From Kiritimatiellia bacterium (GTDB lineage Bacteria; Verrucomicrobiota; Kiritimatiellia; PWTM01), in assembly GCA_026417735.1 (NCBI GenBank), contig JAOACR010000011.1, forward strand, positions 1 through 64,000: a stretch of 64,000 nt of DNA, in the 5' to 3' direction. Each line of letters starts with the position of its first letter. The first letter of the stretch is position 1. The translations under genes were made by a program, and so were the position numbers. This document shows, piece by piece, positions 1 to 41,669 of this stretch. The notes below the pieces were generated by a model. That model did no database searches and was not told the DNA's origin. It saw only the letters and a program-made list of their open reading frames with translations.

Positions 1-19
1 AGATGTGTATAAGAGACAG
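1..19 (+). other. Tn5 mosaic-end / Nextera adapter remnant (artefact)
   Basis: The first 19 bases are exactly the 19-bp Tn5 mosaic end found in Nextera tagmentation adapters (AGATGTGTATAAGAGACAG). The match is exact and sits at the very first base of the window, so it is untrimmed library adapter at a contig end and not a genomic transposon. The reading frame of the neighbouring histidine kinase runs straight into it. The residues it would encode after position 20 of the window are artificial. Confidence 0.96.
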
Positions 20-1172
20 GAATCAGGCGGTCCTCCCGCGGCAGGTACACCGTCACCGCGGTGCCGCCGCCCGGCTCGCTGTGAATCTCGATCTCGCCGC
101 CGTGGTCGCGCACGATCCGCTGCACGATCATCATCCCCAGCCCCGTGCCGCCGGGCTTCGTCGTGTAGTACGGATCAAAAATCCGGCTCATCTGTTCAGC
201 GGTCATCCCATGTCCGGTGTCCCGAATTGTGCAGCGAAGGAACCGGTCGGTCGCGCCGACCGTCACCCTCAGCACACCGCCGCCGCTCATCGCCTCCGCC
301 GCGTTCTTGATCACGTTGAACAGAAGCTGCCGGATCTGGCCCCGGTCCACCCGGGCGGTCGGCAGGTCGGGCGGAATCTCGGTCTCGACCAGAATCCGGC
401 GGTCGGACAGCTCGGGCCCGAGAAACGCGAGCGCGTCGCGCAGTAGCTCGCCAAAATCTGCCGACTCCAGCTGCGGCTTCACCGGCCGCACCGCCTGCAG
501 AAACTCTGTGATGATCCGGTCCAGCCGCTCGACCTCCGTCCGCGCGACGCGCACCAGCTCCGCCAGCTCCTGCGCGGTGGCGCCACCGGGCCGTGCGATC
601 GCGCGCTCGATCAGCTGCAGATGAATGTGCAGCGAATTCAGCGGATTGCCGATCTCGTGCGCGACGCCGGCCGCCAGCAGCGTCACCGCGCGCAGCCGCT
701 CCGATTCCAACGACTGCGCCGCGTTCTCGCGTTCCCGCGTCACATCGCGCAGAATCAGCACCGCTCCCGAGGAGGGCGGCGCACCGTCCGCACTATCCCG
801 CCGCAACGGCACGACATAGAACGCGAGAAACCGGTGCTCGGGGTAGTTCACCTCGATTTCGCGGCTCAACAGCCGCGACCACTCCGCCGCGTCCAGACTG
901 AGCACCTGTTCCCAGTCCACCTCCCGCAAATACCGCCCAATGCGCGTGCCGTGGGCCTCCTCCATGGAAAACCCCAACAGCCGTTCCGCGGCGCGGTTCG
1001 CAAACTCGATGCGCCCCCGCGCGTCCAGCACCACCAGCCCCTCCTGCATCGAATGAAAAATTGTCTCCAGCAACCCCTTTTCGCGCGCCAGATGCAGGAT
1101 CTGCAGCTGCAAACTGCCGGGATCCACACGGCCAAGACGATCGATCAGACGGTCGAGAAACTTGTTCTTCAT
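20..1172 (-). CDS. PAS-domain sensor histidine kinase, 3' end cut by contig edge
   Basis: This is a two-component sensor kinase of the NtrB/AtoS type, which autophosphorylates on His and passes the phosphate to a response regulator not seen here. About 384 codons are present. Residues 35-150 form a PAS domain (MQEGLVVLD, RIEFANRAAERLLGFS). The HisKA helix has the H-box VAHEIGNPLNS with phospho-acceptor His172. The ATPase domain has an N-box (FNVIKNAAEAM, Asn290), G1 (DTGHG, 318-322), an F-box (FDPYYTTK) and G2 (GGTGLG, 341-346). No membrane segment is visible, so it is probably cytosolic. The catalytic domain is almost complete, and only the last few residues and the stop are lost to the adapter at bases 1-19. 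I chose the ATG at 1172; the frame stays open upstream. Confidence 0.9.
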
Positions 1173-4522: not shown

Positions 4523-7048
4523 ATGAGCTCCGTCCCCTGGAAGCGGCCGTGGCGCGCGCTGCCAATGCTGGCGGTCGCCGCAGTGGCGGCGGGATGCGTG
4601 TCGGCCCCGCGCGCGCCGCAAGGCCCCGATCCTACTGCGCTCGCCGCCTACGGCGCCGCGGTCGTCGCGCTCGGCGAGCAGCGCGCCGACGAGGCGGAAC
4701 AGCAGCTTCGCCGAGCAATTGAACGGGACCCGGCTGCGCCCACCCCCGTGCGGGACCTCGCCCGCCTGCAGTGGGGCCGGCGCGACCTGGCCGGCGCCAC
4801 CGCAACGCTCGAACAGTTCCAGCGCCGGCATCCGGGCCACCGCGAAATCGTCGCGCTGCTCGCCGCGATCTATGCGATGCAGGGACGCGCCGAGGACGCC
4901 ATCCGTGCGCTCGAGACGGGGCTGGCCCGCGCACCGGCGGACGCGCAGCTGGTCGCGCTCGCGGTGGAGCTGCTGGCCGACCGAGACCGCGCCGCGGATG
5001 CGATCTCGACGTTGCGCCGCGCCGCATCGGCTGCGCCGCCTACCCCCGAGCTGATCCGCGCCGCCGGCCGGCTCGCGGTGCGATTGCGAGACGCGAACAC
5101 CAACTCCCCTGCTGCGCGCGAGGCGCGCACCACGTTCGATGCGATCGCGTGCAGCGCCAGCAACTCTGTCGAGGCCGGTCTGAGTGCCGCCAATGTGTAC
5201 CTCGCGCTCAACGACGCGGACGCCGCCCTGCGCCTGCTCGAAACGCTGTGGCGCCGCGAACCCGGCCGGCCGGAGGTCGCCAGCCGACTGGTTCGCCTCC
5301 TCCTGCAGCGCAACGACATGGCCGCGGCGCTGCGCGTGCTGGAAACGATGAGCGCCCAGGGCGACCCCGCCTGGACCGTCGCACACGCGGAGACGCTGCT
5401 GCGCCGTGCCGATCAGTCCAACGATCCTTCCGCCGCTCGAGGCGACCGCGAGCGCGCGGTGGCGCTGCTGCAACCGCTGGCATCGATGGAGCCCCCGCAG
5501 TGGCGCGTGTTGGCCGCGCTGGGCCGCGCGCTCCTCGCACTGGATCGGATGGAGGAGGCGCTGCGAGCACTCGGCGGCCTGCCGCAGGACGACATGACCG
5601 TCCGCGCCCGCCTGGCGCAGCGCCTGATCGCGCGCGGCCCCACCAACGAGGTGCTCCGCCGTATCGCGTCGCTGCGCGCCGACCCGCAAGTCGGCCGACT
5701 CGCGCGGTATCTGGTGGCGGAGATCCGTCTTGCGATCGGCGAGCGCGAGGCCGGCCGGGCGGAGCTGGAGGCGTTGTGCGCCGCGGACGCGCCGCACGAG
5801 GCGGCGCCATACGTGCGGCTGGCCGCGCTCGACTGGGAGGACGGACGCGCCGAAGCGGCGCACCGGCGGCTTCTGGATGGGCTGGCACGGCTGCCCGACC
5901 ACGTCGGGCTGTTGCGCGCACGCGCGACGCTGCTGATGCTCGACCGGCAGTTTTCCGAGGCGCTGCGGACCTACGAGGAAATCGAGTCGCGACTCGCCGC
6001 GGAAGACCTGCGCGGCCGGTTGTTGGTGAAAATAGAACAGGCGCTTGCGCTGCAGCATCAGGGGCGCGCCGCGCTCGCCGCCCGCCGGCTCGCCGAGGTC
6101 TGGGAACCTCCACCCCTGGCCGCAGAACTGTTCGTGCGGCTGGCCTACGACATCGGCCGCCGGCTGCGCGACCACACGCCCACCGAGGCCACCTTTGCGG
6201 AGCTCGCTCGGCTACGCCCCGACGACCCTCTGGTGCCGATGTACGATGCGCTGCACGCGCTCAGCGCCGACCGGTTCGCGCGCGCGGTGGACATGTTCGC
6301 ACAGGCCGAAGCGCTCGCGCTGCAAAGCGATGAAGGCCGCGAGCTCCTCACTGCGCAGTTTCACTTTTCCTACGGCAGCGCCCTCGAGCGGAGCGGGCGC
6401 CGCGCGGAGGCGGAAGAGCGCCTCGAAACCGCGCTGCGGCTCGATCCAGACCTCGCCGTCGCCTGGAACTACCTCGCCTACATGTGGGCAGAGCGCGGGG
6501 AACGACTCGACACCGCGCTGCGCTACGTGCGCGAGGCGCTGAAGCGCGAGCCGAATAACGGCGCGTTTCTCGACACGCTCGGCTGGATCTACTACCAGCA
6601 AGGCCGGTACGCGGAGGCGGAGGCGGAACTGCGCCGCGCGCTCGCCGCACTGCCGGAGGAGGACCCCACCGTGCTCGACCACCTCGGCGACACCGCCGCG
6701 CGGCTCGGGCGCGAAACCGAGGCGGTGCAGTACTGGTCGCGCGCCTGGGTGCTCGAGTCCACTAACGACACCATCCGCGCGAAGCTGGAGCAACGCGGCG
6801 TGGACCTCGCGCCGCTGCGCCGGCAGGCCGCCGAAGTGGAGCGGCGGCGCGAACAGGAACTCCGACGGTTGACCCCGCTGACCTCCGAGAGCCTCGACGA
6901 AGAAAGCGAAGACGAGACCCCCTTGCCGCCCGAGGACGATGCCGACGAGGAGGACAGCGCCGCTGGCTATCCGAGCCGTGTCCCCGTTGCAATCCGGCAC
7001 CCCCGCGCAAATTCGCCGCCGCTCATCTCCGCCCGGCCCTCGGGCTGA
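4523..7048 (+). CDS. large tetratricopeptide-repeat lipoprotein
   Basis: An 841-residue protein with a lipoprotein leader: charged KRPWR, a hydrophobic stretch, then lipobox VAAGC with Cys25 as the predicted lipidated residue. Nearly all the rest is TPR helices. The clearest units are near residues 50-120 and at 640-760 (AVAWNYLAYMWAERGERLDTA, FLDTLGWIYYQQGRYAEAEAEL). The tail from about 785 is acidic (many Glu/Asp) and proline-containing. TPR lipoproteins of this kind scaffold envelope or secretion assemblies, but no partner is evident here. Its 3' end overlaps the convergent fmt gene by 82 bases. Confidence 0.85.
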   Translation: MSSVPWKRPWRALPMLAVAAVAAGCVSAPRAPQGPDPTALAAYGAAVVALGEQRADEAEQQLRRAIERDPAAPTPVRDLARLQWGRRDLAGATATLEQFQRRHPGHREIVALLAAIYAMQGRAEDAIRALETGLARAPADAQLVALAVELLADRDRAADAISTLRRAASAAPPTPELIRAAGRLAVRLRDANTNSPAAREARTTFDAIACSASNSVEAGLSAANVYLALNDADAALRLLETLWRREPGRPEVASRLVRLLLQRNDMAAALRVLETMSAQGDPAWTVAHAETLLRRADQSNDPSAARGDRERAVALLQPLASMEPPQWRVLAALGRALLALDRMEEALRALGGLPQDDMTVRARLAQRLIARGPTNEVLRRIASLRADPQVGRLARYLVAEIRLAIGEREAGRAELEALCAADAPHEAAPYVRLAALDWEDGRAEAAHRRLLDGLARLPDHVGLLRARATLLMLDRQFSEALRTYEEIESRLAAEDLRGRLLVKIEQALALQHQGRAALAARRLAEVWEPPPLAAELFVRLAYDIGRRLRDHTPTEATFAELARLRPDDPLVPMYDALHALSADRFARAVDMFAQAEALALQSDEGRELLTAQFHFSYGSALERSGRRAEAEERLETALRLDPDLAVAWNYLAYMWAERGERLDTALRYVREALKREPNNGAFLDTLGWIYYQQGRYAEAEAELRRALAALPEEDPTVLDHLGDTAARLGRETEAVQYWSRAWVLESTNDTIRAKLEQRGVDLAPLRRQAAEVERRREQELRRLTPLTSESLDEESEDETPLPPEDDADEEDSAAGYPSRVPVAIRHPRANSPPLISARPSG

Positions 7049-7902
7049 ACCCGCAGCAGCCGCAGCGCCTGCTCGCCCGTCGCCACCAGCGGGCCTTCAC
7101 GCCCCAGCTCCAGCAGTTCCCCCGGCACGCCCCGCCCCGACTCGACGCGCGCCGCCAGCACCTGCAGCCGCATCGGCGGAGAGCCGGGCAGCCAAGTGAA
7201 CGCGCGCGGCCATGGCACGAAGGCACGAATCCGGTTCCGAAGCTCTTCGGCCGGACGGTTCCAGTCCAAGAGCCCGTCCTCCTTACGGATCTTTGGCGCG
7301 TAGGTTGCGGCGGACTCGTCCTGCGGCGTGCGCGGCACCGGCGGCCGCTCGAACAGCGCCAGCGCCCGCAGCAGCAACCTGGCTCCCAGCGCCGCCAACC
7401 GCGGCTGCAGCGTTGCAGCGGTGTCGTCCGGCCCGATCGGCTCGGACTCCGCCAAAATGATGTCGCCGGCGTCCATGCGCTCCGCCAGAAACTGCACGGT
7501 GACCCCGGTGAGGGTCTCGCCGTTCGCAATTGCCCATGGGATTGGTGCCGCGCCCCGATACTTCGGCAGCAACGAAGGATGGACGTTGATTCCGCCGAGA
7601 CGCGGCAGCGACAGCAGCGGCGGTTTCAGAATCGCTCCGTAGTCCGCCACCACCACAAGGTCCGGCGCCCACTCTCCGATCGCGGCGACCTCCTCCGGCA
7701 CATTCACCCGTTCCGGCGTCCGCACCGGTACCCGCTGCGCTTCGGCCAGCACCCGCACCGCACACGGAGTCGGCCGCCGCCCACGCCCCGCGGGACGATC
7801 TGGCCGCGTGACGACCCCCACCACCTCCTCCCTACGGTCGCTCAGCAGCGCCTCCAGGATCGGGCACGCGAAGTCCCCCGAGCCGAAGAACACGATCCGC
7901 AC
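6967..7902 (-). CDS. fmt: methionyl-tRNA formyltransferase
   Basis: Fmt formylates Met-tRNA(fMet) for translation initiation. It has 311 residues, the normal length. Catalytic Asn106, His108 (INVHPSLLPKYRGAAPI) and Asp144 (ERMDAGDIIL) fall at the same numbers as in E. coli. The FGSGDFACP start and the KIRKEDGLLDW junction to the C-terminal OB-like tRNA-binding domain are clear. It lies downstream of the ACT gene with a 13-base gap, probably in one transcript. No peptide deformylase gene (def), its common partner, is adjacent. Its last 82 bases overlap the convergent TPR gene. Confidence 0.96.
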   Translation of the reverse strand: MRIVFFGSGDFACPILEALLSDRREEVVGVVTRPDRPAGRGRRPTPCAVRVLAEAQRVPVRTPERVNVPEEVAAIGEWAPDLVVVADYGAILKPPLLSLPRLGGINVHPSLLPKYRGAAPIPWAIANGETLTGVTVQFLAERMDAGDIILAESEPIGPDDTAATLQPRLAALGARLLLRALALFERPPVPRTPQDESAATYAPKIRKEDGLLDWNRPAEELRNRIRAFVPWPRAFTWLPGSPPMRLQVLAARVESGRGVPGELLELGREGPLVATGEQALRLLRVQPEGRAEMSGGEFARGCRIATGTRLG

Positions 7903-26390: not shown

Positions 26391-29300
26391 TCAATAGAAG
26401 CCGTAGGTGCGAGTTTTCTGGTTGTTGCCCTCGCTCTTTTCGGCCACCGCGCCGTCCGCGTCAATAAACGCGCGGAAGGTATAGGTGCCTTTCGCGGTCG
26501 GCGCCACCAGGCCGGGGAACTCAATCGTGCGGCTCTCGCCCTTGGCCATCACGCCGACACTCACCGACGCGTCCGAGACTTCGCCCGGAACCGCGGCGGC
26601 AGGCTTGTGGATCCAGACCGCCAGCCGGCCGGGCGCGCCGGCGGCGCCCGCATTTTCAATCGTCACGCGCGCGGTGAACGTACCGCCGCGCGTCAGCGGG
26701 TCCGGCACGAAGGCGATGCTGTTGACCTTGAAGTCCGGCGGTTCGACGTACCCACCACCTCCCGACGGCGGCGGGCTTGATGTGCCCGGCACCGCGGCAG
26801 AGGCCTGATCGTCCTCACCCGGCAGGCCGTTGTTCGGCGTCGAATCCGGATCCGCAATGCCCGCCGATACAACCTCGGCGGTGTTCGTCACCGTCCCGCT
26901 CACCCGGCGGTCCACCTCGATGTGAAGCGTCGCAGAGCGGCCGGGTGGCAGGCTGCCGACAATCCACAGGCCGTTGGAGGGGTTGTACGCGCCGGCGCTC
27001 GCGGTCGAGCCCAGATACCGCAGCTCGGACGGCAGCAGGTCCGCAACCGCAACGAGCGGCGCGGTGGCGGGGCCGCCGTTCGCAACGGTCAATCGGAACG
27101 TGTGCTGCGCCTCGAGCGCCGAGCGGTTGAACCAGGCTTCGATCGTGAAGCTCGTCGTGTCCAAATGCAGGCTGGCGCTGTCTGGAATCACGATCTTGTC
27201 CGACGTGCCGTTGAACCGGTACGCGGGGCCCGCCAGCCCCAGCTCGGTGCGCGAGGCCCCGTACGCGGTGCCGTGGTTCGCGAACGCGGTGGAGTCCTGC
27301 ACCGGCCCGACGAGCTCGTCAAAGTGCTGGACCAACACGAAGTCGCCGTCCCAAACCGCGGAGGGGTTCGCGAGCGACAGGGCGCCGGGGTTGCCGTACT
27401 GCAGCAGGAACGGCATGTCCATACCCGCCTGCAACAGCGGCAGCGCGACCCACGCCGTCAGGCGGCCGGTCGTCGCGTCGAACAGCTCGATCTCAAACGG
27501 CAGCACCTCACCGCTCGGCAGCGTGAAGACCAGATCCGATCCATCCGCCTTCGCCACCTGCAGTGCCGCGTTCGTTAGCTGCACCAGCACCGGGAACTGC
27601 GCAAGGGTACCGGCCACCTGCGCGCCGCGCACGGTGATCGGCAGCTGCCGCGCATAGCCCGGCAGCGTACCCGGCTGCTCCGGCCCCACCTGGACGAACT
27701 CGCCCGCCCGTGCGATCGAACGCCAGGTCGTCAACAGCCACGCGGTCGACCGCGCCCGCTTCGAGATCCGAACTTCATCCATCCGCCCGCCGAACCAGTG
27801 GCTGTTGCCGAGATAGGCCCCGAGGATCAACGGCGCGGTAGAGTGGTCGATCGTTCCCGACGCGGTGCGCGTCGCGACGACCACGCCATCCACGAGGATT
27901 TCGAGTTTGTGCGGACCCCAGGCCGCCGGGCCACGGGTGAGCCGGCCGACCACATGGTGCCAGCCGCGGGTGATCTCTATGCCGCTCTTCAGGTTACCTG
28001 GCCCCCACACATCGAAGCTCGGCTCGTTGTGTTCGAGGCGCAGCCAGTAATCGCCGTCGACAAACTGCTCGCCCTTCGAAATCGGGATGCACCACTGCAC
28101 CGGCGGCACGAGGTTCGTCACGACCTCCTTCCGCAGCGAGAGGTCCGCGCCGCTCGGCGCAACGACGACCACCGCCGCATCGTCCTGCGCGCTGACGGTG
28201 GTCGGGCCGTACTGCCCGGTCGCCGTTGCGACGTTCACCACATCCGCCTGCACGTTCAGCGCGGTCTTCGTCAACACCGCCTGGCCACCGACCGGCAGCG
28301 ACGCCACCGTGCCCACCGTCCCGAGCTTGTCGTCGGTGACGGTCACGTTGCTCAGCGGCACGTTGCCGATGTTGCGGACGGTGTACGAATAGGTCACGTT
28401 CGCGCCGGCCTCGACGCTCAGCACCGCCCCGTCCGCGGCCCCCAGCGCAATCTTCACCACCTGGATCGCGGGCGCCGGATCGGTAACGCGCACCACCGCA
28501 TCATCCCGCGCGGTGAGGGTCTGCGCTCCATACTGCGCGGTGACGGCGACGACGTTCGTCACGTCAGCCGTGGCGCTGTCCAGCCGCGCGGTCCAACTGA
28601 GGCTGCCGCCGGCCGGCAGCGAGGGCACGGAGCCGACCGCGCCAAGCTTGTCGTCGGTCGCAACGATGTTCGTCAGCGCCACGTTGCCGGTGTTACGCAC
28701 CGTGTAGATGTAGGTCACCGGCGATCCGTTCACCACCGTGAGCACCGCGCCGTCCGCCGCCCCCACCGCAATCTTCACGACCGACAGTCCCGGCGTCGGC
28801 GGTGGTGGCACCGCGATGTGCACGATCGCATCGTCTGTCGCGCTCACCGGCCCGGTGTCGCACGGCAGCTCGACACCTCCCGGCCCGACCGGTCGCGCAG
28901 TGACGCTGCCCACATTCGTGACCGCTTCCGAAACCGACGCGACCGTCGCGGTCAGCGTCACACTCGCGTTGGGCGCCAGCGGCCCCAGAATCGTGCCGAT
29001 CGAGCCCAGCCGGCTGTCAGTGACGGCGATGTCCGCCAGATGCGCCGAGCCGGTGTTGCGAACCTGATAGGTGTACACCACCGGATCGCCAGCCGGGATG
29101 GTCAGGATCTGCCCGTCTGCAGCCGCACCGGCGCGAACGATCAACTGCACCCGGGCCAGCGCTCCGGTCGGCCCCGGCACCACCACGGAGGCCAGATCGT
29201 CCTCACCCGGCGCGCGGTTGTTGGGCGTCGAGTCCGGGTCCGGTGTCTGCTGCGCCGCGACCTCGGCGAGATTCGTCAGCGGTCCGCAGCCGCGGGCGCT

Positions 29301-32300
29301 GGCCGCGATCCACAGCGTCGCAGTTTCGCCAACGCCGAGCGTGCCGATCGTCCAGAGCCCCGGCGGCTCCGCGTAAACGCCGCGCGTCGCCGTCGCGCTG
29401 ACGAGGCGGAACGCCGGCGCCAGCGGGTCGGCAATCACGACCCCATCGGCCGGATCAGGTCCGTCGTTGCGGACGGTGAGCTGGAACAAGTAGTCCGCCG
29501 CCACCGCGCGTCGGCTGACCCACAGCTCAATCGTGAAATCGGTGCTGTTCAACTGGAGCGTCGGGTGGTCCGGAATCGTGATCTTGTCGTCCAGGCCGTC
29601 GAACGCGAACGCGCCGTCCGTGATGCCCCACGGCGTCGGCGTGGCGCCGGAAACGACACCGTGGTTGCCGTTCGTGGTTGAGTCGCGGACCGGGCCGGAG
29701 GCCTCGTTCAGGTGTTGCACCATCATGAAGCCGTCGTCCCAGACCGCGCTGGGCGCGTACGCGGGCGGCGGCGGGCTCGAATGGCCGTAGTGGATCACGA
29801 AATCGGTCGGCGTGCCCGACGCGAGCAGCGGCAGGCGGACCCACGCGACGAGCCGGCCGCTGTCGCGCGAGAAGAGCTCGATCTCGTGTGCAAGCGGCGT
29901 GCCGTCCGGCAACGTGAAGGAGATGTCAGCACCGTCGGGCCGTTGCACCTTTGTCATCAGGAACGGATCGGTCAAGCTCACCAGCACCGGGAAGTTCGTC
30001 AGCGGCGAGCTAACGAGCGCACCGTTCACGGTCAACACCCGGCGGTGCGCATAGCCCGGCAGCGAGCCCGGCTGCTCGGCTCCGAGCGCGACGAACGCCG
30101 CCGGGTCGCGCTGCTGCGCCACCGTCGCGCGCAGCCATGCATCGCTGCGCGCGCCGCGCGATAGCCGCACCTCGTCCATCAGCCCTGCGAACCAGTAACT
30201 GTTGCCCAGGTACGCACCCAGCACCAGCGGTGCGGTGGAAGGATCCGTCGTACCGGTGGCAGTTCGTGTCGCGACGACGACCCCATCCACCAGAATCTCC
30301 ATCGTGTGCGGACCCCACGAATTGGGGCCTCGGCGGAACCGGCCGGCGAGGTGATGCCAGCCCTTCGAGATGTTCACACCGCTCTTCAGGTTGCCCGGTC
30401 CCCACACGTCGAAACTCGGCTGGTCATATTCGAGACGCAGCCAGTAGTCGCCGTCCACGAACTGCTGACCCTTGGAGAGCGGAATCGTCCACTTGTTCGG
30501 ATACTCGGCGATGGGCTGCCGCTGCTTCGTCAGCGACACGTCCGCGGAGCGCGGCACGATGCCGAGGTCCCAGCTGGGATCGTGCTGGCCCCAGCTCAGC
30601 GTGATCGGCCCGGTGCGGCCGGTGTTCACGTCCGCGTCGCTGTCCGTCGGATCGGGACCGCCGATCGGACCGCGGACGGTCGGCTTGTACTGCGCGGGCA
30701 ACGTCGAGAGGTCGAACTCGACCTCGTACGTTCCTGCCTGCAGCAGATCGAAGCGGTACAGACCGTTCACGTCGGTCACCGTCGAGGCGATCGGCACACC
30801 GCCCTGCAGCAGCACCACGCGCACCCCCGGCACGCCGGGCTCGCCCGCGTCCTGCACACCGTTCTGGTTCACGTCGAACCACACGAAGTCGCCCAGCGAG
30901 GCCGGCTGCCAGATGCCGGCGTCCCAGGTCAGATCGTTTTCACCCGGCTCCAGCGTCGTCACGATCGTGCGACCGGTAGAGGGGTCGGCGTCGCTGTCCT
31001 GCGCGTCATTGCCGCCCTGGTCGCGCGCGCTGAACGCGTAGCCCGGCGGCAGCGTGAAGCCCACCGAGTAGTCACCCGGCGTCAACTCGCTGAAGAGGTA
31101 GTTCCCGTTCGCATCGGTGGTGGTGGTGGCCACCACGTTGCTGTTCGCGTCGTACAACCGCACCGTGACGCCGGGCACGCCGGGCTCACCTGCGTCCTGC
31201 ACACCGTTCGCATTGAGATCGTGCCACACCCGGTCGCCGAGCGAGGCCGGCCGCAGATAGAGACCCGCATCCCACGTGCGGTCCGTCTCGCCCGGGTCCA
31301 GCCGTGTCAGAATGGTCCGGCCGGTGGTCACGTCGGCATCGCTGTCCTTCGCATCGTCGCCACCCTGGTCGCGCGGGCTGAACGCATAGCCCGGCGGCGG
31401 CGTGAAGCCGAGGGAGTAGTCGCCCGGCACGAGCTGATCGAAGAGATAGTTCCCGCTCCCATCGGTGGTGGTGGTGGCCACCACGTTGCCGCTGCCGTCA
31501 TACAGCGTCACCGTCACGCCCGGGATCCCAGGCTCGCCCGGATCCTGCACGCCGTCGCGGTCCGTATCGAGCCACACCCGGTCCCCGATCGCCGCCGGCC
31601 GCCAGAGGCCCGCGTCCCAGCTGCGGTCGTACTCTCCGGCCTCCAGGTTCGTCAGAACCGTCCGGCCGGTGGAGGTGTCCGCGTCGCTATCGCGCGCGTC
31701 ATCGCCGCCCTGATCGCGCAGCGTAAACGCGTAACCGGCCGGCAGCACAAATCCCACCGAGTAGTCGCCCGGCATCAGGCCTTCGAAGAGGTAGAGGCCG
31801 CTCGCGTCGGTGGTGTTGGTGGCGACGGGCGCGCCGAGCGCGTTGTAGAGCACCACCGTAACGCCCGGCACCCCGGACTCGCCCGCGTCCTGCACGCCAT
31901 TGCGGTTCACGTCATACCACACCCGGTCGCCGATCGCGGCCAGCGGCATCACCACCGCCGGGTCATTCGAGCGGACCGGCGGCGCGCCGGGAATTTCGCG
32001 CCCCTGCGGATCCGCCGGGTGGCCCACCACCGAGCCGATGTTCGTGACCCCCGCCGAGAGCGGGCCGGACACCTTGGTCAACACCGAGGTGGCCCCCGGC
32101 ATGAGCGGGCCGGCAATCGTCCCCACCACGCCAAGCCGGTCATCTGTCACCGTCAGCCGCACCAGCGGAAGTTCGCCGGTGTTGATCACCACGTACCGGT
32201 ACGTCACCGCCGTTCCGGGCACGAACCAGTGCACCCCGCCGTCCGGCGCGGTGCCCGCAGTCTTCATAATCTTCACCGCCGTCGGCGGCAGCCAGAGACC

Positions 32301-35243
32301 AAGGTCCCAGCTCAGGTCGGTCTCCTCCTGCGCCAGCCAGGTGATCGGCGTGAAGCCGGTCGCCGCATCCACATCCGAGTCCACCTCATCATCGCCGCCC
32401 TGGTCACGCGGGCTGACCGTGTAGGCGGACGGAATCTCAAACACGGCGTAGTAGTTGCCGCGGTCCAGGTTCGGGAACACGTAGTAGCCGGGCTGGCCGT
32501 AGAAATCGTCCGCGGTGACAGTGAACCCAACGTAGCGGTCCTCGTTCGTGTTGATGATGCCGTCCGGGAAACCGCCCGGTCCGCTGTCCTCGTAGAACCG
32601 CACGCGGATGCCATTCACGCCGACCTCGCCGGGGTCCTGGATGCCGTTCTTGTTCAGATCAAACCAGACGCGGTTCCCATAGACCGCGTTCGTATCCGGC
32701 CGCACCCAGATGCCGACTTTGATCGGTTCCGACGGCAGCAGCTTCGATCCGGTGTCCACTCGCGTGCCGGAATACCCGAACGAGTTCCACGCCACGCGGC
32801 CGTCGGTCGGCGTTCCCACCGGCGAGCGCATTGGCCAGGAGAGCTCAAACTCCTGCCCCGGCTGAATCACGATGTTAGTGAACACGAACAGCAGCGAGCG
32901 GGCGTCGGTGATCGTCGCCGGCGGATTTGTGCTCCAGCCGGGGGGCATCGAGCCCGGCGGGCCAGACGGCACAAAGTCGGGCCGCGCCGGATTCATCTCG
33001 CGGCTGTAATAGACGACGACACCCGTCGGCGCCACCACCGGGCCTGCCAGCGCGGCTTTCCACTGCGTGTCGCGAGCGGAGAGGTCAATCACGCCGGTGT
33101 CGCCAATCGCCGGCAGGATATCGAGCACCTGCACGTCTCGAATCGGCACGTTGCCGGTGTTCTTCACAATCAGCCGGTAGTCGGCCCGCCCTCCCGGCAC
33201 CGTCATGCCGGCGTCCGGATATCTGGACCAGTCGCTGTCGAGCTCGCCGCGGACCCATTTCACCGAATCCATCGAGGCCCGCGCGCGGATGGTGACGGTC
33301 GCCCGCCGATAGTACACGGTCTCGGTTTTGTTGCCGTCACTGTCGAGGTCAAAGGTGTCCGGCGTGCCGGTCAGGTTGGCGTTGTCCAGCGCGCTGTTCG
33401 CCCATTGCGCGAGCGTCGCATCGTTGGTGACGGTGCCATAGAGTGCGCCGGAGGGAATCCGCGCCCGGAACCGCAACTCGATGAAGCTGTTGATCGGCAG
33501 CGAATACGCGGAAGCGCCCGTCCACTTCCACCGCAAAAGCATTCGACCGCTCCCCCCGTGGTTCGGGACCGTTTCGAACACCGGATCCGGTGCGCCCGCC
33601 GGCTTGCTGACAATCGTATAGCTGCCGACCTCGTACACGAGACGCGGATCCAGTAGATCGGCGAGCACCGGATTGACCAGCGGCTCTGCGGCCTCCGATC
33701 GGTTGGTCAACCGAATCGTGAAGGTCGCGGTGTCGCCATCGTTGTACGTCGAGTTGTCCGCGCTTTTCGTTATCTCTGCCACAGGCCGCTGCGTCAGCAC
33801 CGGCAGCGTCGCCACCGCGACACGGCTGGTCGCAGTACCCAACGGCGCCTCGTATGAGAGCCGCGCGGTGTTCGTGATCACCGTGCCGGCAGTAACGGGT
33901 TGCCCATCCCGATTCGTCGCGAGAATCGTCGAAGCAAACTGCAGACTTCCAATCGAATATCCAGGCGGCAGAGTGCCGAAGTTCCACATGATCGCCGTCA
34001 CATCCTCGCCCGGCCCCAGTCCAAGGCTCGATACCGCAATCGTCACCGAGGAGGTGCCCGGATAAGGATTGCCCGGCGCCGGCAGCCAGGTGCTGCCACC
34101 AGTTTTCATGTAGAACACGCTGATCGGACTGTGCAATCCGGGCGGCGTACCGCTCGGCTGACCCACATTGATCGAGGTCACTCGAACTTCCCGCGGAATC
34201 GCATCCGTCACGACCACATTGTGTATCGGCATGGTGCCGGTGTTCTGCAGCGTGAAGGTCCAGTTCTTTGCAACCGGCTTACCTTCATACACGTAGCTCT
34301 GATTGACACCTTTCGAGAACGACGAGGACGCCTGAGCCAGCGCGGCCGTATGAACCGCGATCGCCGTCAGATTGGTCGGCGGCCGGCCCAACGGCGTCAC
34401 TGTGGCGGAGACCTGGTTGGTGATCCGCGCACCCAGCGGAAACGCTCCGGATGGATACCGCACTGTCAGTGTTCGCGAAAGCGAAGATCCCGCGCTGAGA
34501 GTTGCAGCCGTCCACGTGACCATCTGGGGGGGGCCGGCGCTGTACATGCCTCCACCGCTCGCCGCCACAAACACGGCGCCGGAAGGCAGCGCATCCACTA
34601 GTGTCACGTTGGTGAGATTGAGCGATCCCACTGTCTGATTGTTGTTCAGCGTGATCGTGTAGGTCACGTTCTCGTCCAGCGGCACTGTCCCCCCCGCCAG
34701 AGTTTTCGACAACGTCGCCCGGTTGGTCGCCAGCGCGGTAATCGTCACCGGTGGAGCGGTCGCGGGCGGCGCATTACTGGAACTCATTGTCGCTGTGTTG
34801 GTGGCAATCGTACCGGATAGGGTGGAACCGGGTGTGAAACGCACCTGCACCTCAATCTCGCCCGTGCTTCCTGCCGGCAGCGGGTTGATGAAGCGAATGC
34901 GCAGCAGCCGGTTGGATGCGGTGTACGTATAGGAGTCCACATGGACGGTACCGGTCAATCCTTGAAACTCAAGGCCCGGAGGCAACACATCGTCGAGGAT
35001 CACACCGTGAAAGTTGGTCACAGTGCTCGCAGCCCGGTATCGCAGGATGTAGGCAAACGATTGACCCGTGGGAACCGTCGTCAGCCCATCCTTTACCAGC
35101 TTGGTGATCTCGAGGCCCGTTTGTGCGCTGCTGGTTAGCGCCAACGCTCCAATCGCCGCCGTAACGCGGATACGCCACCCCACCGCGGCGCCGCAGCCCA
35201 CTCCCCGCGCCGTCCCCTCGTTCTTCAGCTCCAGTGTTTGCAT
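26391..35243 (-). CDS. giant secreted surface protein: DUF11, SdrD_B, DUF2341/LamG, CARDB
   Basis: 2950 residues. A leader (VTAAIGALALTSSAQ, residues 28-42) is followed by several DUF11-type Ig-like domains with ITK/LSK starts and LPPGLEF or LPSGAVF cores up to about 840. Next come an SdrD_B (Cna-B-like) domain near 850 and four more at about 1100-1560 (GDRVWxDxNxNGVQDxGExGVPGV). Two DUF11 domains are interrupted by a DUF2341 plus split-LamG module (about 1584-1915 and 2383-2713), with three DUF11-like repeats between them. The C-terminus is a CARDB domain (about 2832-2950). There is no sortase, PEP-CTERM or T9SS tail. It is probably an adhesin or S-layer-like protein. GGAGAGG lies upstream of the ATG. 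Confidence 0.88.
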   Translation of the reverse strand: MQTLELKNEGTARGVGCGAAVGWRIRVTAAIGALALTSSAQTGLEITKLVKDGLTTVPTGQSFAYILRYRAASTVTNFHGVILDDVLPPGLEFQGLTGTVHVDSYTYTASNRLLRIRFINPLPAGSTGEIEVQVRFTPGSTLSGTIATNTATMSSSNAPPATAPPVTITALATNRATLSKTLAGGTVPLDENVTYTITLNNNQTVGSLNLTNVTLVDALPSGAVFVAASGGGMYSAGPPQMVTWTAATLSAGSSLSRTLTVRYPSGAFPLGARITNQVSATVTPLGRPPTNLTAIAVHTAALAQASSSFSKGVNQSYVYEGKPVAKNWTFTLQNTGTMPIHNVVVTDAIPREVRVTSINVGQPSGTPPGLHSPISVFYMKTGGSTWLPAPGNPYPGTSSVTIAVSSLGLGPGEDVTAIMWNFGTLPPGYSIGSLQFASTILATNRDGQPVTAGTVITNTARLSYEAPLGTATSRVAVATLPVLTQRPVAEITKSADNSTYNDGDTATFTIRLTNRSEAAEPLVNPVLADLLDPRLVYEVGSYTIVSKPAGAPDPVFETVPNHGGSGRMLLRWKWTGASAYSLPINSFIELRFRARIPSGALYGTVTNDATLAQWANSALDNANLTGTPDTFDLDSDGNKTETVYYRRATVTIRARASMDSVKWVRGELDSDWSRYPDAGMTVPGGRADYRLIVKNTGNVPIRDVQVLDILPAIGDTGVIDLSARDTQWKAALAGPVVAPTGVVVYYSREMNPARPDFVPSGPPGSMPPGWSTNPPATITDARSLLFVFTNIVIQPGQEFELSWPMRSPVGTPTDGRVAWNSFGYSGTRVDTGSKLLPSEPIKVGIWVRPDTNAVYGNRVWFDLNKNGIQDPGEVGVNGIRVRFYEDSGPGGFPDGIINTNEDRYVGFTVTADDFYGQPGYYVFPNLDRGNYYAVFEIPSAYTVSPRDQGGDDEVDSDVDAATGFTPITWLAQEETDLSWDLGLWLPPTAVKIMKTAGTAPDGGVHWFVPGTAVTYRYVVINTGELPLVRLTVTDDRLGVVGTIAGPLMPGATSVLTKVSGPLSAGVTNIGSVVGHPADPQGREIPGAPPVRSNDPAVVMPLAAIGDRVWYDVNRNGVQDAGESGVPGVTVVLYNALGAPVATNTTDASGLYLFEGLMPGDYSVGFVLPAGYAFTLRDQGGDDARDSDADTSTGRTVLTNLEAGEYDRSWDAGLWRPAAIGDRVWLDTDRDGVQDPGEPGIPGVTVTLYDGSGNVVATTTTDGSGNYLFDQLVPGDYSLGFTPPPGYAFSPRDQGGDDAKDSDADVTTGRTILTRLDPGETDRTWDAGLYLRPASLGDRVWHDLNANGVQDAGEPGVPGVTVRLYDANSNVVATTTTDANGNYLFSELTPGDYSVGFTLPPGYAFSARDQGGNDAQDSDADPSTGRTIVTTLEPGENDLTWDAGIWQPASLGDFVWFDVNQNGVQDAGEPGVPGVRVVLLQGGVPIASTVTDVNGLYRFDLLQAGTYEVEFDLSTLPAQYKPTVRGPIGGPDPTDSDADVNTGRTGPITLSWGQHDPSWDLGIVPRSADVSLTKQRQPIAEYPNKWTIPLSKGQQFVDGDYWLRLEYDQPSFDVWGPGNLKSGVNISKGWHHLAGRFRRGPNSWGPHTMEILVDGVVVATRTATGTTDPSTAPLVLGAYLGNSYWFAGLMDEVRLSRGARSDAWLRATVAQQRDPAAFVALGAEQPGSLPGYAHRRVLTVNGALVSSPLTNFPVLVSLTDPFLMTKVQRPDGADISFTLPDGTPLAHEIELFSRDSGRLVAWVRLPLLASGTPTDFVIHYGHSSPPPPAYAPSAVWDDGFMMVQHLNEASGPVRDSTTNGNHGVVSGATPTPWGITDGAFAFDGLDDKITIPDHPTLQLNSTDFTIELWVSRRAVAADYLFQLTVRNDGPDPADGVVIADPLAPAFRLVSATATRGVYAEPPGLWTIGTLGVGETATLWIAASARGCGPLTNLAEVAAQQTPDPDSTPNNRAPGEDDLASVVVPGPTGALARVQLIVRAGAAADGQILTIPAGDPVVYTYQVRNTGSAHLADIAVTDSRLGSIGTILGPLAPNASVTLTATVASVSEAVTNVGSVTARPVGPGGVELPCDTGPVSATDDAIVHIAVPPPPTPGLSVVKIAVGAADGAVLTVVNGSPVTYIYTVRNTGNVALTNIVATDDKLGAVGSVPSLPAGGSLSWTARLDSATADVTNVVAVTAQYGAQTLTARDDAVVRVTDPAPAIQVVKIALGAADGAVLSVEAGANVTYSYTVRNIGNVPLSNVTVTDDKLGTVGTVASLPVGGQAVLTKTALNVQADVVNVATATGQYGPTTVSAQDDAAVVVVAPSGADLSLRKEVVTNLVPPVQWCIPISKGEQFVDGDYWLRLEHNEPSFDVWGPGNLKSGIEITRGWHHVVGRLTRGPAAWGPHKLEILVDGVVVATRTASGTIDHSTAPLILGAYLGNSHWFGGRMDEVRISKRARSTAWLLTTWRSIARAGEFVQVGPEQPGTLPGYARQLPITVRGAQVAGTLAQFPVLVQLTNAALQVAKADGSDLVFTLPSGEVLPFEIELFDATTGRLTAWVALPLLQAGMDMPFLLQYGNPGALSLANPSAVWDGDFVLVQHFDELVGPVQDSTAFANHGTAYGASRTELGLAGPAYRFNGTSDKIVIPDSASLHLDTTSFTIEAWFNRSALEAQHTFRLTVANGGPATAPLVAVADLLPSELRYLGSTASAGAYNPSNGLWIVGSLPPGRSATLHIEVDRRVSGTVTNTAEVVSAGIADPDSTPNNGLPGEDDQASAAVPGTSSPPPSGGGGYVEPPDFKVNSIAFVPDPLTRGGTFTARVTIENAGAAGAPGRLAVWIHKPAAAVPGEVSDASVSVGVMAKGESRTIEFPGLVAPTAKGTYTFRAFIDADGAVAEKSEGNNQKTRTYGFY
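30890..31960 (-). repeat. tandem SdrD_B-coding repeats, period about 345 bp
   Basis: Four consecutive domains within the giant gene begin near 31940, 31590, 31245 and 30905. Stretches such as the one coding DQGGDDAxDSDADxxTGRT are nearly identical in DNA between copies, including wobble positions, which indicates recent duplication or gene conversion. A fifth, more diverged copy lies near 32690. Confidence 0.8.
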
Positions 35244-35507: not shown

Positions 35508-38393
35508 TCATGGCAAGGTGACGCGAATGCGAAAGAACAGCGGTGCGCCAACATTTTCAGGCACCTCCACGACCCACTCGCCACCGGTACCGGGACGGTT
35601 AGTCTGGGCAGTCCACGAGGCGGCGGCCAGACTGACGCAGAGCTCCAAATGGTATCTGCGCTGCAACGAGGTGGGATTGAGCGACAGTCTCCAGCCAACC
35701 GGCGCGCGAGAAATCTGCAGACGTGGAATCGCGCTCTGCGCATTCGTCGGCGAAGTGTCCGCAATGAATTCCGCCCAGTTCGCATCGCCATCGCCATCAG
35801 AATCCTCCCCTTCGAGCTCCGTCCACGTTTGCGGCGGCGTCGGCAGCAGCCCATGCTGAGCAAACCACTCCAGCGGAACCTGCCGCGCCGTGTGGAACTC
35901 TGCGAGCACCTGGAACGAGTTGGTCACGGGGCCGTCGCGCCTTGGATTGTCCACCCGCCCGTCGCTCCAACGGTGGAACTGCGCGCCTGCCGGCGCCACG
36001 GCCAGCACCGGAGTGCCTGTGGTCGCGTGAGGGATCGACTGCGTCGCCACTCCTGAAATTGAACCACTTACGCTGACCCCATACCGGACCACGTAAACGT
36101 TCGTCCCAAACAGAGCGATCAGTGTCCGATGGCGATCGGCTTCGAACGCAATGACCGGATTGGTCGCAACGGCGGCGCCGTTTTCGGTCCACCTGCGGAA
36201 GTGGTAGCCGTAAGAGGGCGTTGCATTCAATTGTACCGTGTCGCCGGGCAAATACCGCCCTGCGCCGGCGACAGAGCCTGCATTCGAATCGTTCGGCGAC
36301 GCAGCGATATCGAAAAAGGAAGCCAGCTTCGCCAGGTAGGCGGACGGACGGCCCCCGGCCAGCCCGAAGGCACCGCCCACCAGGATGCCTCCATTGCCGT
36401 CCGATGCCAGCGCGTAGACATAGAGGGCGGTGAAGTCAGGCGCACCAAAGGGGGCTTCATCTTGAACGCCCGACCCCCGTCCCGACCACTGCAAACCATC
36501 CCATCGCGCGATGTTGTTCGCCGGGACACCGCCGGCCTCGGAAAACTGCCCTCCCGCGTATAGCGCCCCAGATGGACAGCGGCGCAACGCGAACACCCCG
36601 TCACCCTCAATCCCCGCTCCCAGCGCCTGCCAGACGCCGTCACGCCAGAGCGCCACCCGCTCCGCCGGCTGTCCGCCCGCCTGCGAAAACTTCCCCGCCA
36701 CAACAAGCCCTCCGCCCGGTGCGCGTTCGATCGCCCAGACCTCGCCGTCCAGTCCGCCTCCGACCGGCGCCCACTGCACGCCATTCCAACGGGCGATCCG
36801 GTTTGCCGCCGTCCCACCCGCGGTCGTGAAACTCCCCCCCGCATACAGGTCGCCATTGTCATCCACAAAAAGGGTATACACCGGCCCGTTCATCCCCGTT
36901 CCGAGCGGCCGCCATCGCGTGCCATCCCATTCCGCCACGCGCGCCGCATTCGTGCCGCCTGCCGTTGTAAACACCCCCCCGGCGTAGAGCCGGTTGGTCG
37001 CCGGCACCGCCAGCGCATACACCGCGCCGTTCATTCCGCTGCCGAGCGCGCGCCACCCTCCCCCCTCGAGCACCGCGACACGGTTGACGCTCGCCGTGCC
37101 GGAAGCCAAGAAGTCCCCCCCCGCATACAGTCGCCGGTCGGCCCCCATCGCCAGAGCGTACACCCAGCCATCGAACCCCTCGCCCACCGGGCTCCACACG
37201 CCCCCCGACCACTTCGCCACATGCCGAACCCGCCGCTCGTCCAGCACCTGAAACCCACCTCCCGCGAACACATCCAGACTCACCGGATCGGTCACCAACG
37301 TCAGCACTGGCCCATCAAAACCCGTCCCGAACGGAACCCAGTCTGTGCCGTTTCTCACCATCACGTGCGGCATGAACACACCGTCGGCGCTGCGGAAGGG
37401 ACCCGCCGCATGCAGCCGGCCGGTGAGCGGACAGACCGCCAACGCATGCACCGGATCGTCACACTGCGCCACCGTGTTCCACTGCACGCCGTCCCAGACC
37501 GCAATGACACCGGAACCCGGCGCCATCCCCCCGCCGAGCCAGAGACGGCCGTCCAACCCCACCGCAACCGCCCGCACCGTCGCCGGCGCCCCACCCCCGA
37601 TCGCCGACCAGCCCGTCTGGTTCCACCGCGCCACACGGTTGGCCGCCGCACCGCCTGCGCTCGTAAACTCGCCACCCGCCACAAGATGTCCGTTCGTATC
37701 CAGCACGAGCGCCCGCACGGGCCCGTTCATCCCGCTCCCCAACGAACTCCACGACGTCCCGTTCCACCGCGCCACCCGCGCCGCAGCGACGCCACCAATG
37801 TTCGTGAACGCCCCGCCCGCATACAGTGTACCGTCCGCCGCCACCACCAGTGCCCAAACTTCCGCACCAGCGGTGCCAATCGTCGTCCACGCGACGCCAT
37901 TCCACATCGAGACCGACGCCGGAGTGCCATGCGCTGCAAACACGCGTCCGAGCCCGTCCACCGCGATCGCATGCACCGCGCCCGAGACCCCGGCGCCCAG
38001 CGCCTCCCACATCGCGCCATTCCATCGCGCAATGCCGTTTGCAGAGACGCCGCCGGCGCTGGTCAGTGCCCCCCCCACCAGCAGCCGCCCCTGCCCGTCG
38101 AGCGCAACTGCCCGGATCTCCCCATTCACACCGCTTCCCAGCGGCTGCCACCGGCCCCCCTCCCAACGGGCCACCCGGCTGACGCTCTCATTACCAATGA
38201 GCGTGAAACTTCCGCCGATGAACACCGTGCCGTCCGCCGCGACCGCAACTCCGTTCACCGGTCCGTTGATGTCGGGACGTATCGGCCCCCCGAGCGGCGT
38301 CCAGTGTTCATCGCGAAAACCGGCCATCGCCCCGAGCGCGCCCCACAACGCGCCCGCGAGCGCGGCTCTCCACCATGCCCGCTCCCCCAACAT
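35508..38393 (-). CDS. secreted beta-propeller protein with InlB-type repeat region
   Basis: 961 residues from the ATG at 38393, chosen for GAGAGG four bases upstream and because it opens directly on a signal peptide (ERAWWRAALAGALWGALGAMA). The frame also stays open for 46 codons upstream. The body contains about 14 units of roughly 45-50 residues with the pattern NGxVxALxxxxxGxLYxGGxFTxAGGxxAxRVARWNGxxWxxLGxG, which would make two seven-bladed propellers. After them come Listeria-Bacteroides/InlB-like repeats (YHFRRWTENG, FHRWSDG), a calcium-type DSDGDGDAN, and a Verrucomicrobia-style tail ending FFRIRVTLP. It is next to the giant surface protein on the same strand, so both may build the cell surface. 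Confidence 0.8.
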   Translation of the reverse strand: MLGERAWWRAALAGALWGALGAMAGFRDEHWTPLGGPIRPDINGPVNGVAVAADGTVFIGGSFTLIGNESVSRVARWEGGRWQPLGSGVNGEIRAVALDGQGRLLVGGALTSAGGVSANGIARWNGAMWEALGAGVSGAVHAIAVDGLGRVFAAHGTPASVSMWNGVAWTTIGTAGAEVWALVVAADGTLYAGGAFTNIGGVAAARVARWNGTSWSSLGSGMNGPVRALVLDTNGHLVAGGEFTSAGGAAANRVARWNQTGWSAIGGGAPATVRAVAVGLDGRLWLGGGMAPGSGVIAVWDGVQWNTVAQCDDPVHALAVCPLTGRLHAAGPFRSADGVFMPHVMVRNGTDWVPFGTGFDGPVLTLVTDPVSLDVFAGGGFQVLDERRVRHVAKWSGGVWSPVGEGFDGWVYALAMGADRRLYAGGDFLASGTASVNRVAVLEGGGWRALGSGMNGAVYALAVPATNRLYAGGVFTTAGGTNAARVAEWDGTRWRPLGTGMNGPVYTLFVDDNGDLYAGGSFTTAGGTAANRIARWNGVQWAPVGGGLDGEVWAIERAPGGGLVVAGKFSQAGGQPAERVALWRDGVWQALGAGIEGDGVFALRRCPSGALYAGGQFSEAGGVPANNIARWDGLQWSGRGSGVQDEAPFGAPDFTALYVYALASDGNGGILVGGAFGLAGGRPSAYLAKLASFFDIAASPNDSNAGSVAGAGRYLPGDTVQLNATPSYGYHFRRWTENGAAVATNPVIAFEADRHRTLIALFGTNVYVVRYGVSVSGSISGVATQSIPHATTGTPVLAVAPAGAQFHRWSDGRVDNPRRDGPVTNSFQVLAEFHTARQVPLEWFAQHGLLPTPPQTWTELEGEDSDGDGDANWAEFIADTSPTNAQSAIPRLQISRAPVGWRLSLNPTSLQRRYHLELCVSLAAASWTAQTNRPGTGGEWVVEVPENVGAPLFFRIRVTLP

Positions 38394-38489
38394 CAATCCT
38401 CTCTTTCGCGCTACCGATTCGACTCGCATGCGCAACATACGCCCATCGGCCACCGACTGCAATGCCCCCCCTGCAGCTGCATCTTCAGC

Positions 38490-38518
38490 TTGACCGGGCA
38501 CCGGCGACGCAATAGATT
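38490..38518 (+). promoter_or_regulatory. sigma-70-like promoter of rpsU
   Basis: TTGACC (38490-38495), a 17-base spacer and TAGATT (38513-38518) match the consensus hexamers at 5 and 4 of 6 positions with ideal spacing. Transcription would start near 38525 and give a leader of about 54 bases before the rpsU start codon. It lies in the divergent spacer with the propeller gene. Confidence 0.6.
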
Positions 38519-38578
38519 CGTGGCTTAGCACGGACCTCGCGCGTGTGGGGCGCGCTTGGGAAAGGGGTGACCGCTACT

Positions 38579-38824: not shown

Positions 38825-41669
<2,845 letters not shown>

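Follow-up and report, generated by a model that had tools for sequence, protein, structure and literature searches.

Can a LamG domain whose two halves stand in swapped order, on either side of a second domain and inside a third, still be one domain? The question is raised by a 2950-aa protein encoded on contig JAOACR010000011.1 of a Kiritimatiellia bacterium, within a window (the whole stretch of DNA that was analysed) of 64,000 nucleotides. An earlier note had proposed that a circularly permuted LamG/DUF2341 module is nested in a DUF11 domain of this protein, at the site called copy 2 here.

The 2950-aa protein and the order of its segments

Pfam matches in the 2950-aa protein comprise DUF11-type repeats, five SdrD_B domains, DUF7507 repeats, LamG, DUF2341 and a C-terminal CARDB domain. 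It begins with what by reading resembles a signal peptide; N-terminal DUF11-like and related Ig-like repeats are followed by the five SdrD_B domains and copy 1 of the permuted module, and then by the DUF7507 repeats, copy 2 and the CARDB domain, which is the sole CARDB match in its genome (Table 1). The last residues of the protein (EGNNQKTRTYGFY, 26391-26450) recur as identical C-termini in the G013 relative (L065) and in two G075 proteins (the loci concerned being L065 and L070), and may be a sorting tail.

The next upstream gene (35508-38531, minus strand) encodes a surface-like 1007-aa beta-propeller protein with a divergent InlB B-repeat, for which the Pfam names are Rax2, DUF5122 and Flg_new_2. 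Farther along, a gene for a GDP-mannose 4,6-dehydratase adjoins one for a second epimerase/dehydratase (39763-41669, plus strand), as for GDP-fucose synthesis. Locus L081 of G001, a genome of the same genus (C3:163725-164225), holds an SdrD_B-like stretch that is 49% identical to the 2950-aa protein, has three in-frame TGA codons and is perhaps a decayed relative of it.

Table 1. Segments of the 2950-aa gene, by position in the window. The rightmost column gives the match or evidence on which each assignment is based.
Feature	Positions	Strand	Basis
2950-aa multidomain gene	26391..35243	-	single open frame
Copy 1, host DUF11 first strand (RSADVSLTKQRQPIAEYPN)	30495..30551	-	alignment
Copy 1, LamG second half	30063..30494	-	Laminin_G_3 positions 42-149, 63.3 bits
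Copy 1, DUF2341	29757..30062	-	PF10102
Copy 1, LamG first half (...FTIELWVSRRAVAAD)	29493..29756	-	re-ordered LamG 2-149/151, 72.5 bits
Copy 1, rest of host DUF11	29193..29492	-	DUF11 18-109, 74.5 bits
Copy 2, host DUF11 first strand (SGADLSLRKEVVTNLVPPV)	28098..28154	-	without insert, DUF11 is a single stretch 1-109/114, 85.5 bits
Copy 2, LamG second half (QWCIPISKGEQFVDGDYWLRL...FVQVGPEQPGT)	27666..28097	-	Laminin_G_3 positions 43-148
Copy 2, DUF2341	27369..27665	-	PF10102, 33.7 bits; border with LamG first half approximate
Copy 2, LamG first half (AVWDGDFVLVQHF...FTIEAWFNRSALEAQ)	27105..27368	-	placed before second half: Laminin_G_3 1-148/151, 75.2 bits
Copy 2, rest of host DUF11 (HTFRLTVANGG...)	26805..27104	-	DUF11 positions 15-109, 81.5 bits
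CARDB domain, C-terminus	26412..26738	-	Pfam

Both copies have the order DUF11 first strand, LamG second half (L2), DUF2341 (D), LamG first half (L1) and rest of DUF11. The landmarks of copy 2 are ADLSLRKEVV at residue 2366 (position 28148), ISKGEQFV at 2388 (28082), GYARQLPI at 2529 (27659), FTIEAWFN at 2699 (27149) and HTFRLTVANGG at 2714 (27104), all five of which share one open frame. The segment positions and order claimed for copy 2 are confirmed, the insert within its DUF11 running from 28097 down to 27105, within a codon of the 27105-28095 given in the earlier note. Copy 1 spans 29193-30551 and is 57% identical to copy 2. LamG is broken between its "FTIEAWF" and "ISKG" strands, and DUF11 between its first strand and its second; L2 of copy 2 is homologous to the corresponding half of LamG in normal-order modules.

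Profile searches were read against the Pfam cut-offs, which are 27.6 bits for Laminin_G_3 (PF13385) and 23.4 bits for DUF2341 (PF10102). With copy 2 in its native order, the best Laminin_G_3 stretch starts only at profile position 43 (63.5 bits in all), whereas re-ordering the halves gives one near-complete stretch with a higher score (Table 1); for copy 1, re-ordering likewise raises the score from 63.3 to 72.5 bits. Near-full-length matches were obtained for six of six re-ordered modules (75.2, 72.5, 68.9, 60.0, 50.4, and 45.3 bits), starting at profile position 1 or 2 and ending at 148 to 150, and a full-length match above the cut-off appears only after re-ordering. The native-order best stretch begins at position 37-44 in the modules tested, G013 excepted, and in three of four relatives re-ordering added 0.9 to 4.4 bits together with full-length LamG coverage. 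For the G013 module (L065, native 6298-7650) in its native order, Pfam detects no LamG at E<=0.01; re-ordered, the module gives 45.3 bits over 2-150/151. DUF2341 scores 26.0-36.1 bits in the modules of G058, G012, G304 and G013; in copy 1 it scores 21.9 bits from the module alone and 25.3 bits, above the cut-off, in the whole-genome search. With its insert removed, the host DUF11 of copy 2 also gives a full-length match (PF01345; Table 1). Because the re-ordered LamG and the insert-free DUF11 each match as single stretches, the module contains a complete copy of both domains and is a circular permutant of LamG with its halves swapped. Native order thus conceals half of LamG from Pfam, and all of it in one genome (G013): permuted LamG domains can escape standard annotation, and such architectures are probably under-counted.

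Recurrence and origin of the permuted order

A search of 58 relatives gave matches across the junctions in three further families of the same class. When 346 genomes of the class were searched with a profile, ten permuted modules were found in eight of them (two here, two in G075, and one each in G012, G013, G014, G058, G074 and G304, that of G014 being cut by the contig end). These score 486-829 bits, against 172 bits for the best normal-order match, a normal-order array. Looking for the same junctions elsewhere, as the earlier note had suggested, therefore yields eight further modules in seven other genomes, and what had seemed unique to one locus is instead a small family. A pattern scan of 84,980 species returned five loci, all apparently within the same eight genomes, judging by protein sequence; the protein at one of these loci has a score identical to that of the G012 protein. 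Aligned modules from the other genomes are 41-56% identical to copy 2, and the protein from G058 is 58% identical to the 2950-aa protein across 2328 aa. The contigs were deposited independently, from different sites. Frames are intact in all ten modules and LamG core residues are conserved; dN/dS is 0.10-0.15 in close pairs (G074/G075), with low replacement rates in every segment.

Among 388 sampled genomes of the phylum, part of which belong to the class itself, no full-span module was found outside the class. On viral contigs we found no whole module; a query with DUF2341 and L1 retrieved normal-order modules only, and a single-protein LamG query retrieved none. One hit on a Methylosinus plasmid seemed to extend into DUF11, but was read as normal-order DUF2341-LamG-MotA with a spurious extension. 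At this locus (L091, plasmid pMSC49a) a normal-order DUF2341-LamG is fused to a MotA/TolQ/ExbB channel, with ExbD and TonB genes adjoining, so that here the two domains are put to another use.

All complete permuted modules read L2-D-L1-DUF11, and that of G014 ends after L2-D at the contig end; about 33 other modules of the class, from sampled loci, are D-L1-L2, many of them in tandem. A maximum-likelihood tree of modules put in common order unites the nine complete permuted ones in a single clade (SH-aLRT 99), whose neighbours are normal-order modules from a tandem array in G163 and from G039. The clade is nested among normal-order modules on this midpoint-rooted tree, in which the forks neighbouring it are less well supported. 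The last LamG landmark and the DUF2341 landmark lie 64-66 aa apart in permuted modules; in true tandem arrays their separation is 62-73 aa. The permuted modules are thus most likely a small family of single origin. A unit taken half a LamG out of register from a tandem array reads exactly L2-D-L1, and we infer a donor array, DUF2341-LamG-DUF2341-LamG, and a donor event by which such a piece would have been excised and dropped once into the DUF11 loop, replacing about ten residues. A CARDB domain lies downstream of the module in all full-length relatives seen (by eye and by homology to the 2950-aa protein), and at least three kinds of N-terminus precede it, which points to a C-terminal cassette; module and CARDB would subsequently have been reused in different proteins.

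These results bear on three other explanations. The source genome is assembled in 24 contigs, and repeats are known to lead to assembly errors. It must therefore be considered that a normal DUF2341-LamG gene was rearranged or made chimeric in assembly; a rearrangement of this kind is what the earlier note had named as the finding that could overturn its reading. The same junctions in independent assemblies, from seven further genomes and different sites, rule out an assembly fault, and with two diverged copies on one contig and purifying selection across the junctions we leave it practically no probability. Could the fragments be decayed or non-folding remnants of recombination among repeats? 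The 2950-aa protein is repeat-rich, and the three genomes of the same genus (G001-G003) do not have the permuted module and yielded no full-length homologue of the protein's N-terminal region; yet intact frames and conserved core residues throughout, low dN/dS and replacement rates, and a confident AlphaFold2 model (see below) make this highly improbable. The variety of N-termini might suggest several independent origins of the permuted order, but the LamG and DUF11 breakpoints are identical throughout and the modules form one well-supported clade, so we regard separate origins as very unlikely.

Predicted fold and probable role

A first AlphaFold2 run with an alignment of seven rows gave a model too poor for use (pLDDT 58.7). 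Twelve rows, each a separate half from normal-order modules on viral contigs, were added for the second run, and the resulting model has a pLDDT of 84.9 and a pTM of 0.74. The added rows being separate halves, closure in this model depends on the fold learned by AlphaFold2 and on the six rows that hold both halves. Aligned by VIA-align 2, the model matches 1AJK (the engineered, circularly permuted glucanase CPA16M-84) with Z 12.7 over 159 of 201 residues (model 16..346, chain 1..214) and concanavalin A with Z 9.0 over 152 residues (model 31..348); other jelly-roll matches are PTX3 (Z 11.6) and laminin-511 (Z 10.0). Since the LamG second half is about 145 residues long and ends near residue 163 of the model, the ranges matched to 1AJK and concanavalin A can be reached only with both halves, taken in permuted order. 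Ig-like structures align over the model range 1-435, e.g., 6QFS with 91 of 104 residues (model 4..435, i.e., the first strand plus residues 347-435), so that in the model the first DUF11 strand joins the remainder across the insert. Ig-like matches dominate the Foldseek ranking of the whole model; against viral models Foldseek returned LamG and DUF2341 proteins with low whole-model TM-scores, which do not bear on the order of the segments. Sequence searches of solved structures with the whole module or its DUF2341-L1 part gave nothing significant, and no solved structure resembles DUF2341 by sequence. The LamG halves are predicted to make one closed jelly roll and the host DUF11 one closed Ig-like domain. 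A jelly roll closing across the insertion, suggested in the earlier note, is thus what the model predicts.

In the arrangement DUF11a-LamG2-DUF2341-LamG1-DUF11b, the insert would sit in the loop that joins the first strand of DUF11 to the second, with DUF2341 bridging the original C- and N-termini of LamG. The LamG-DUF2341 head would be held by two chains from the DUF11 loop, an attachment that would mount it sideways and leave the stalk continuous. LamG domains commonly bind sugars or proteins. The signal-peptide-like start of the protein and its Ig-like and SdrD_B repeats most likely indicate a secreted or surface stalk, and the module is probably a lectin-like, DUF2341-bearing head on an adhesin-like stalk of Ig-like repeats.

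The halves might instead find their partners in the other copy or in another molecule, so that a domain-swapped chain or polymer results. L1 of copy 1 does precede L2 of copy 2, the right order for such pairing. Every other protein seen has a single module, however, so pairing between copies is not the general rule, and the model, built for a single chain, is closed and aligns with a permuted jelly roll that is itself a monomer; we consider cross-pairing unlikely. It seems distinctly unlikely that neighbouring modules or molecules exchange L1 and L2 and that the stalk proteins thereby assemble into domain-swapped fibres at the cell surface. A LamG merely split by a long insert between the two copies was ruled out, the relatives being single-copy. 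We hold it very probable that the module is a permuted LamG with its old termini bridged by DUF2341, set in a DUF11 loop, derived once from an array and then reused, and serving as a head on a stalk.

Comparison with known systems

The tandem DUF2341-LamG_3 modules of the class (G163 L040, G174 L043) have the same domains, homologous sequence and the same LamG-to-DUF2341 joint (62-73 aa) as the permuted modules, and DUF2341-LamG in MotA/ExbB-type proteins has the same two domains, again with homologous sequence. Both differ in their order (DUF2341, LamG first half, LamG second half) and in lying outside DUF11. As arrays resembling the likely source persist in the same class, tandem duplication followed by out-of-register excision is a testable route.

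By structure, the top match of the predicted model is N-acetyl-(R)-beta-phenylalanine acylase (8I59, 8HUY), an enzyme, with Z 15.8; the 168 residues aligned extend over a 332-residue span, so the matched part is interrupted there too. The integrin beta subunit, in which an I-like domain is inserted in the Ig-like hybrid domain, likewise carries its binding head on two chains, which attach it to an Ig-like domain within a surface stalk. Its head is neither a jelly roll nor permuted, and no homology is implied.

Natural permutation of the jelly roll is itself known, from concanavalin A versus favin and from the 1,3-1,4-beta-glucanase of Fibrobacter succinogenes (cited in PMC2395249). Permuted jelly rolls, including the engineered 1AJK, are ConA-like sandwiches with termini moved to an inner loop, as here, and our model aligns to 1AJK in sequence order. 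They are free-standing enzymes or lectins, however, whereas here the new termini plug into DUF11 and DUF2341 bridges the old ones. Nested insertions of the form A1-B1-C-B2-A2 are also known, and in bacterial RNA polymerase subunits inserted domains are circularly permuted as well (PMC13114784); those insertions have other folds, and the available part of that account describes no third domain bridging the old termini. The earlier note knew of no example of its nested permutation. Jelly-roll permutation and inserted permuted domains are each on record, but A1-B2-C-B1-A2 with a third domain bridging the old ends was not found for DUF2341, LamG or DUF11 in the accessible portions of the literature searched, and the combination appears undescribed. 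The module thus offers a natural example of circular permutation combined with domain insertion, in which the old termini are linked by a third domain.
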